From: Acidobacteriaceae bacterium
GTDB taxonomy: Bacteria; Acidobacteriota; Terriglobia; Terriglobales; Acidobacteriaceae
DNA: 35,871 bases
Direction: 5' to 3'
Assembly: GCA_025361625.1 (NCBI GenBank)
Contig: JANYKL010000119.1
Location: forward strand, 1-35,871
Shown: positions 29,141 through 30,561 of the stretch, one piece after another
How positions within the stretch are numbered: position 1 is the stretch's first letter
How the letters are laid out: every line of letters begins with the position of its first letter
The notes under the pieces: generated by a model
Seen by the model: the letters and a program-made list of their open reading frames with translations, nothing else
The model's database searches: none
Told to the model about the DNA's origin: nothing
Translations under genes and position numbers: made by a program

Positions 29141-29319
29141 TCGCAGGAGCCCGCTGAGCCGACCGCAACGTTAATGCAACTAAACACGACTTGGCGTGGC
29201 TCAGCATAGTGCGGCTAAACGTTACTCCGAAATACCTGATTTGCTACCCTTATACCCACCCAGTGTTTACAGGATTATGCCGATATCGAGTCCGGTCGCT
29301 CGCCTTTATAACCTTACAT

Positions 29320-29514: not shown

Positions 29515-29529
29515 CTTGTAACTCGTTTT

Positions 29530-29545
29530 CGCACTAAACGGTGCG
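29530..29545 (+). other. Hairpin with TAAACG loop
   Basis: CGCAC pairs with GTGCG around the six-base loop TAAACG, 15 bases after the Lmo0937-family stop codon. The same loop, closed by the same C-G pair but on a different stem, is repeated at 29590–29605. This suggests a shared structural motif rather than sequence duplication. Confidence 0.5.
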
Positions 29546-29570
29546 GACTAACAGCCAGTTCTTCCCCCGT

Positions 29571-29630
29571 GAGGCTCGCTTCCGACGGTGAAACTAAACG
29601 GTTTCCTACCCGGAAGGGAGCCTCAATCTT
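29571..29630 (+). terminator. Long imperfect hairpin, probable terminator of the Lmo0937-family gene
   Basis: GAGGCTC (29571–29577) pairs with GAGCCTC (29618–29624), CTTCC with GGAAG, GGT with ACC, and GAAAC with GTTTC. That is about 20 base pairs in 54 bases, capped by the loop TAAACG (29595–29600). AATCTTTT follows directly. A Rho-independent terminator is the simplest reading, but the stem is longer and more interrupted than usual, and the loop matches the hairpin at 29530, so a small RNA or protein-binding element is possible. Confidence 0.6.
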
Positions 29631-29695
29631 TTAATACGAGCAGGCTATTTTTGCCAACTGTAGCCGTCTCGCTCCCGAACACCCTCTAGCCCCTC

Positions 29696-29701
29696 TATAA
29701 T
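29696..29701 (+). promoter_or_regulatory. Predicted -10 element for the hem operon
   Basis: A perfect TATAAT lies 41 bases before the GTG of the HemX-like gene. No good -35 is seen at standard spacing. It is the most likely promoter for the hemX-A-C-D run. Confidence 0.4.
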
Positions 29702-29742
29702 CTTCAGTTGGGCCGGACGTTATTGCTTCCGGCTTTCTCAAA

Positions 29743-30561
29743 GTGCTAACGCTTATCTGGCTCCGGGTCGCGCTCGTTTGCTACGCCGTCGGATTGCTGT
29801 ACGCCTTGGTGGCGCTGAGCAAGACCTCCGAGGTATTGAGCAAGATCGCCCTGCACGCTTCCTATCTCGGTATCATCTTCCACTTCGTTTCTCTTACGGA
29901 GGCAGTGGTTCAGACCGGCCAACTAGCTTCCGCTTCGGTGCACAACGCGGAATCGCTGCTAGCGTTTCTGATCATGGCGTTTTTCATGCTCGCCTACCTC
30001 GTGTACAAAACGACTACGCCCGGTATTGTTGTTTTTCCCATCGTGTTTTTGCTGACGTTTGTCGCGGCCACCGGGCAGCAGCCGCTGGTGTTCAATTCGG
30101 ATGTGGTCAAGAAGGGCTGGCTGGCCGTCCACATATTAATGATTTTCACCGGCTATGCCGCTCTCTTTCTGAGCTTTGGCGCCAGCATTCTGTACCTCAT
30201 GCAAGAGCGTGCTTTGAAGTCCAAGAGCGGTAGCGGAGCTTTTTCCCGGCTTCCGGCCCTGCAGGTGATCGATGACATCGGATCCCGCTCGCTGATGCTC
30301 GGTTTTCCCTTCATGACACTCGGTTTGATCGCAGGGTCGGTGGTTGCTCAGTCGACCTACGGGCGAATCGACGTTCTTGATCCAAAAATTCTACTGTCCG
30401 TCCTAATGTGGGCCGTTTATCTCCTGATGGTCTTCACTCGTCTGAGCGCCGGCTGGAGGGGGCGCCGCGCCGCGCTTCTTGCGAGCGCCGCCTTCGCTAC
30501 CGCGGTCGTGGCCTGGATGGCGAACTACTTTAGCGGGATGCACAGGTTTGTCTCTTCATGA
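29743..30561 (+). CDS. hemX: HemX/CcsA-like cytochrome c assembly family membrane protein
   Basis: This 272-residue integral membrane protein has about eight hydrophobic helices. It resembles the CcsA/ResC/HemX family (WLAVHILMIFTGYAALFLSFGASILYLMQE; TLGLIAGSVVAQSTYGR). True CcsA proteins carry a Trp-rich WGxxWxWDPKE heme motif. Here the matching stretch is STYGRIDVLDPKILL, so the DPK is kept and the Trp residues are gone, which fits HemX-type proteins found before hemA. In Bacillus, HemX lowers HemA levels; a similar role here is inference. The start is GTG at 29743 without a clear Shine-Dalgarno. It overlaps hemA by 4 bases (ATGA), so translation is probably coupled. Confidence 0.82.
   Translation: MLTLIWLRVALVCYAVGLLYALVALSKTSEVLSKIALHASYLGIIFHFVSLTEAVVQTGQLASASVHNAESLLAFLIMAFFMLAYLVYKTTTPGIVVFPIVFLLTFVAATGQQPLVFNSDVVKKGWLAVHILMIFTGYAALFLSFGASILYLMQERALKSKSGSGAFSRLPALQVIDDIGSRSLMLGFPFMTLGLIAGSVVAQSTYGRIDVLDPKILLSVLMWAVYLLMVFTRLSAGWRGRRAALLASAAFATAVVAWMANYFSGMHRFVSS

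Follow-up and report, generated by a model that had tools for sequence, protein, structure and literature searches.

What is the role of two hairpins that carry the same loop on stems of different sequence and lie behind a gene for a small membrane protein? The question is raised by a 35,871-nt stretch of DNA from an Acidobacteriaceae bacterium (the window), in which the gene concerned belongs to the DUF5670 family. DUF5670 proteins are widespread, being found in 140 of 398 genomes of the bacterial family (E up to 1e-8), and are without known function. A full-text literature search returned no paper on DUF5670, and few papers deal with Lmo0937, the relative from Listeria. No description of the hairpin element was found in the literature on DUF5670, conserved terminator loops and Acidobacteria RNA motifs, a search largely confined to papers outside subscription. 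Knowledge of post-transcriptional control in Acidobacteria is very limited.

Two hairpins with a common loop in the window

Both hairpins had been reported in an earlier note on the window, and their positions were confirmed (Table 1). They share a core of ten bases, ACTAAACGGT. The loop and the closing C-G pair are kept, as the note had said; its statement that the other stem pairs differ applies to the three outer pairs, which covary, but not to the inner A-T pair, which is identical in the two hairpins. Hairpin 2 indeed forms the tip of a 54-base stem followed by AATCTTTT, and this stem comprises 22 pairs when it is folded in a slightly wider sequence context. For hairpin 1, the fold strength was z -3.3 in its own 26-nt stretch versus z -0.9 in a wider one. 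Downstream of the gene and its hairpins lie a cytochrome c assembly gene resembling hemX (29743-30561) and then hemA.

Table 1. Features of the DUF5670 locus, in window coordinates
Feature	Position	Strand	Remarks
TTTACAG-N5-TGCCGATA, conserved; probably serves the DUF5670 gene as promoter or activator site	29266..29285	+	
TTTATAAC, possible -10 region (inferred)	29305..29312	+	Placed after the TTTACAG motif; several relatives alike
DUF5670 small membrane protein gene, 55 aa	29347..29514 (stop codon included)	+	Pfam PF18919, E 3.3e-12
Hairpin 1, CGCAC-TAAACG-GTGCG, loop TAAACG	29530..29545	+	8 pairs if extended to 29528-29547
Imperfect terminator-like stem bearing hairpin 2	29571..29624	+	-31.6 kcal/mol, z -6.0; homologous stem in G007
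Hairpin 2, GAAAC-TAAACG-GTTTC, loop TAAACG, tip of the terminator-like stem	29590..29605	+	
AATCTTTT, short T tract 3' of the stem	29625..29632	+	Site listed as terminator-like by the terminator scanner

The stem that bears hairpin 2 is a G+C-rich stem-loop as expected of an intrinsic terminator, and AATCTTTT provides four consecutive T after A-A-T-C. Over the window as a whole, the terminator scan detected no excess of terminator-like sites over shuffled sequences. A strong G+C-rich stem after the stop codon is a feature of intrinsic (Rho-independent) terminators in general, and in the window and several relatives a short T tract comes after it. The present case departs from such terminators in that the apical loop is conserved across two genera over stems of changing sequence, a second hairpin with this loop occurs at some loci, and certain sites have a weak T tract or none.

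An ordinary terminator in which the repeat of the loop is coincidental was considered as an explanation. Of 100 simulated 36-kb windows, 1 contained two 5-bp hairpins with the same loop of 5-8 nt within 200 nt, and the core ACTAAACGGT is not enriched in the genus (26 sites in 24 genomes, below the reversed control in most), both of which are compatible with chance. At least five contiguous pairs were present only at the two window sites of these 26. Before relatives were compared, the repeat inside the window was at most suggestive, and it is the comparison with relatives that decides. Since the hairpin recurs at 14 of 14 close loci of a second genus and its stem passes a covariation test (see below), coincidence is refuted for the loop, and we regard this explanation as scarcely tenable. 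Termination itself may well be true even if the loop is no coincidence.

Copies of CTAAAC before the gene had also been pointed out. They exist at 29180 and 29215, but the hexamer occurs 10 times in the window versus 8.9 expected, and when the stretches before 21 related genes (up to 300 nt each) were examined, CTAAMCGG was found on neither strand. The upstream copies were rejected as chance occurrences.

The hairpin and its gene in related genomes

The named relatives in the genus of the window are Acidobacteria MAGs. When the 131-nt hairpin region was searched for at the DNA level in 101 genomes, only the window itself was returned, because sequence divergence is too rapid. The covariance model R1, built from the two window hairpins, found nothing in the 24 genomes of the genus; since R1 missed the window's own copies too, this search was powerless. 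Model R2, made from the terminators of the window and of G007 and applied to the 24 and then to 398 genomes, detected those two loci, a weak antisense echo in G007 and one weak, chance-like match. In G007, which belongs to the same genus, the homologous stem follows the orthologous gene and ends in the tip GGAAC-TAACCA-GTTCT; a counterpart of the first hairpin is absent. Of the 16 common pairs predicted for the two stems, 2 have double changes. Because this nearest relative has the loop TAACCA, TAAACG is not invariant even among the nearest relatives.

The 398 genomes of the family were then searched with the 55-aa protein, and 30 loci were fetched. Fifteen of them lie outside the genus at a protein identity of at least 66%, and 14 of these (66-80%) belong to a second genus, g7. 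PF18919 was also matched by 13 of 13 aligned close homologues. All 14 close g7 loci carry CTAACCGG downstream of the gene on the sense strand, with the loop C-TAA(C/A)CG-G on stems of differing sequence, at 13-46 nt, counted from the stop codon's first base (the stops of L124 and L126 are placed with less certainty, as their start regions are out of line with ATG). Four of them (L117, L118, L120 and L124) have a second hairpin (CTAAACGG or CTAACCGG) about 75-80 nt further on, and an additional degenerate copy at L115, CCAACCAG, was left out of the counts. Thus, the covarying homologues that the earlier note had named as the test of its proposal were found through protein homology, in a second genus. 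At L128, which represents a third genus (70% identity), the hairpin element is absent.

In three loci (L126, L127 and L129), the CTAACCGG hairpin is followed by a second stem-loop of the CATCATC...GATGATG type. Here the stems are similar and the loops differ, a pattern opposite to that of the CTAACCGG hairpin.

Deeper DUF5670 paralogues were sought in 45 g7 genomes, which added L151-L154 and L156. The element is present in one of these five (L154), and L153 has a one-base variant, GGCTAGCCGGCC, in the right place; no element was found at the other three (L151, L152 and L156), nor at L155, which represents yet another DUF5670 type. CTAAMCGG was also absent from the 170-220 nt examined at distant DUF5670 loci, 28 from the genus and 13 from the family (L130-L142).

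In most g7 loci, the DUF5670 gene and the element are flanked by a GFO/IDH/MocA oxidoreductase gene on one side and by a convergent DUF3052 gene on the other, while neither neighbour was found at L122. In the window and in G007 they precede hemX, which is present in 24 of 24 genomes of the genus and is preceded by a DUF5670 gene only in these two. With at least three gene neighbourhoods around the same gene and element, it is the DUF5670 gene to which the element is tied, and not the genes around it. Of the two linkages proposed earlier, that to the Lmo0937 (DUF5670) family was borne out; that to hem genes was not, as the 28 loci from other genera, each a fetched stretch of about 3 kb, gave no hemX match.

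Judged by analogy, the closest known architecture is the dual hairpin bound by ANTAR proteins (EutV, NasR, AmiR), in which, as here, small stem-loops with conserved hexaloops sometimes stand in tandem and overlap a terminator. Nevertheless, an antiterminator of this type is very improbable here. According to PMC3369931, ANTAR loops require A and G at positions 1 and 4, respectively, and the spacing in E. faecalis eut is 5-12 nt, whereas the loop described here, UAAMCR, has U at position 1 and A or C at position 4, so that the A1/G4 rule fails, and the spacing is about 44-75 nt. Furthermore, ANTAR elements sit in leaders, while the present element is located behind a gene, and most g7 loci have a convergent gene next to it.

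Stem covariation and specificity of the loop

For the analysis of the stem, 22 sites (20 distinct) were aligned: the two of the window, the G007 variant and 19 from g7. Since they were chosen by their loop, the loop columns are conserved by construction (UAAMCR at 22 of 22 sites), and the fair tests are the presence at 14 of 14 close loci and the pairing of the stem. Standard pairs occupied 83.0% of the 100 stem cells of the 20 distinct rows, compared to 67.2% (SD, 2.9) after shuffling; double-change cells numbered 25 versus 8.5, and the covariation score was 0.546 versus 0.239. None of these three values was reached in 500 shuffles, although the shuffles overstate independence, because the g7 loci are related (L119 and L121, for example, are near-identical). 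The number of pairs with a double change (reached in 185 of 500 shuffles) and the number of pair types (74 of 500) were not unusual. When the partner strand was slid out of register, pairing dropped to 25-51%. An independent permutation test gave 70 of 88 cells paired against a mean of 53.3, and the observed number was reached in 0 of 5,000 permutations.

On the outer side of the closing C-G, 16 sites have G-C as the adjoining pair and 5 have A-T; in 1 site these positions are unpaired. In the predicted folds, the loop is apical at 21 of the 22 sites, with z from -0.2 to -6.5; in a wider context, folding is weak not only for hairpin 1 but also for L126 (z -0.2) and the first hairpin of L124 (z -1.7). 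TTTT is present within 60 nt of the loop at 13 of 22 sites, and several sites are without a nearby T tract. Eighteen of the 22 differ from the window's arrangement of TAAACG on two hairpins. We conclude that hairpins with a conserved loop and covarying stems, located on the sense strand, are linked to the DUF5670 lineage; the claim of a conserved loop on covarying stems was upheld by the 14 close g7 loci, one of five deeper paralogues and strong pair covariation.

Is the motif specific to this gene? Within 260 nt downstream of 21 DUF5670 genes, CTAAMCGG gave a count of 21 on the sense strand and 0 on the antisense strand. CTAACCGG was the commonest shared 8-mer in these regions (15 of 21), while in a control region, after the neighbouring oxidoreductase gene of 13 of these loci, the best 8-mer was common to only 3. 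A covariance model of the 22 sites scored its members at 16.9-23.7 bits and recovered a site outside the training set, the GGCTAGCCGGCC variant of L153, at 15.7 bits; elsewhere it gave at most 12.7 bits (30 distant DUF5670 loci) and 13.5 bits (100 kb of the g7 genome G220). In Rfam (4,227 models), the window matched only a tRNA at the gathering threshold, and 17 loci searched at E up to 5 yielded one unrelated snoRNA match (E 0.24). The existence of covarying homologues and the lack of an Rfam match agree with the earlier suggestion of an undescribed Acidobacteriota RNA element.

We also took a census of the motif in two genomes, in which members can be missed, since bona fide sites may have just two contiguous outer pairs and 128-nt pieces cannot be judged as coding or non-coding. 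In the window's genome, the census covered all 90 CTAAMCGG sites; the loop was apical in a 58-nt fold at 14, and at least three contiguous extra pairs were present at 3 of the 14, namely the two described here and one within a 481-aa open frame. In G220, 100 of 114 sites were examined, of which 11 were apical and 6 had at least three contiguous extra pairs: one at the DUF5670 gene (whose second site has 2 extra pairs), one in a terminator behind a PEP-CTERM gene, two with 6 pairs, one that was weak and one in a 539-aa frame. Away from the DUF5670 gene, hairpins of this kind are thus rare: G220 has a few, and the window's genome has no convincing one. CTAAMCGG was rarer than its reversed control in both genomes.

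These data bear on the main rival reading, namely that C-UAAMCR-G is kept for the efficiency of termination, as a favourable folding nucleus or a stable loop of intrinsic terminators, with no need of a trans factor. U-A or U-G can pair within the loop, which leaves an AAMC tetraloop in predicted folds, and the clear terminator of the G220 PEP-CTERM gene has the same loop, with 11 extra pairs and a T tract, in addition to the two G220 hairpins with 6. G220 contains at least one unrelated terminator with this loop (L265). Against a generally favourable loop, however, stand the few strongly paired apical sites of G220 (6 of 100, with one of them at the DUF5670 gene and one in a frame), the absence of the loop from the commonly used loops in a 400-kb sample, and the strong stems with unrelated loops at the end of more distant DUF5670 genes. 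On balance, we consider a purely structural loop rather unlikely. C-TAAMCR-G is not a general terminator loop in G220, yet the DUF5670 gene is not its sole user there.

At L271 (position 1532, minus strand; G220:C10), a perfect CTAACCGG-loop terminator with a T tract lies behind a PEP-CTERM gene, a possible second user of the loop. At L274 (G000:C5:4855-4885), TTCCGGTTAG and CTAACCGGAA form an inverted repeat in which the motif is part of the stem and not of the loop.

Candidate roles of the element and upstream signals

The loop itself seems to be under selection, and this suggests that the element is an RNA signal; the conservation of the loop further suggests that it does more than terminate transcription. 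A loop that is kept while the stem turns over points to a sequence-specific reader. The explanation we prefer, to which we assign about an even chance, is that the DUF5670 messenger has an element in its 3' UTR, namely an intrinsic terminator with a tip that a trans-acting factor recognizes. The element would consist of one or two stem-loops after the stop codon, the last usually long-stemmed and with a T tract, and this last stem-loop would serve as intrinsic terminator and protector of the 3' end. Because the tip, C-U-A-A-(C/A)-C-(G/A)-G, stays the same as paired substitutions accumulate in the stem, we propose that it is read in trans by a putative RNA-binding protein or base-pairing RNA, which may set the stability, ending or processing of the DUF5670 message. 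Transcription through the element, termination and the existence of the reader are inferred.

Alternatively, the 3' UTR might be released as a small RNA with the loop as its base-pairing seed. Like 3'-UTR-derived small RNAs, the region is discrete, ends in a putative terminator and has conserved unpaired sequence past the stop codon; C-U-A-A also fits the U-turn type YUNR loop of antisense RNAs. Conservation after the stop codon may mark small RNA seeds, according to a review (PMC9438474). Unlike in those RNAs, the conserved part is a hairpin loop, and at 19 of 21 loci the 5' region of the same message contains no 6-mer complementary to it. A 3'-derived small RNA appears unlikely to us.

Returning to a loop read in trans, we tentatively put forward, with less than even confidence, a broader proposal: the hairpin C(UAAMCR)G may represent a new class of protein- or RNA-recognized 3'-UTR hairpins that travels with the DUF5670 gene, has a dedicated loop reader controlling the fate of the message, and might have a few further targets, such as the PEP-CTERM gene of G220. 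The element is small, and unique enough at the DUF5670 gene, for direct testing.

Upstream of the related DUF5670 genes, TTTACAG was the top shared 7-mer (17 of 21), and the fuller motif, TTTACAG-N5-TGCCGATA, was matched as a strict pattern in 10 of 21. Judged by its sequence conservation, it is probably a shared promoter or activator site of DUF5670 genes. The motif is present in both genera, even before paralogues without the hairpin.

Upstream of hemX, TGTGAC-N4-GTCACA, an inverted repeat that we take to be CRP/FNR-like, and TATAAT are kept in many relatives of the genus (L004-L025 were compared). In the window (29640-29742), the inverted repeat is seemingly lost, and TATAAT (about 29696) alone remains.
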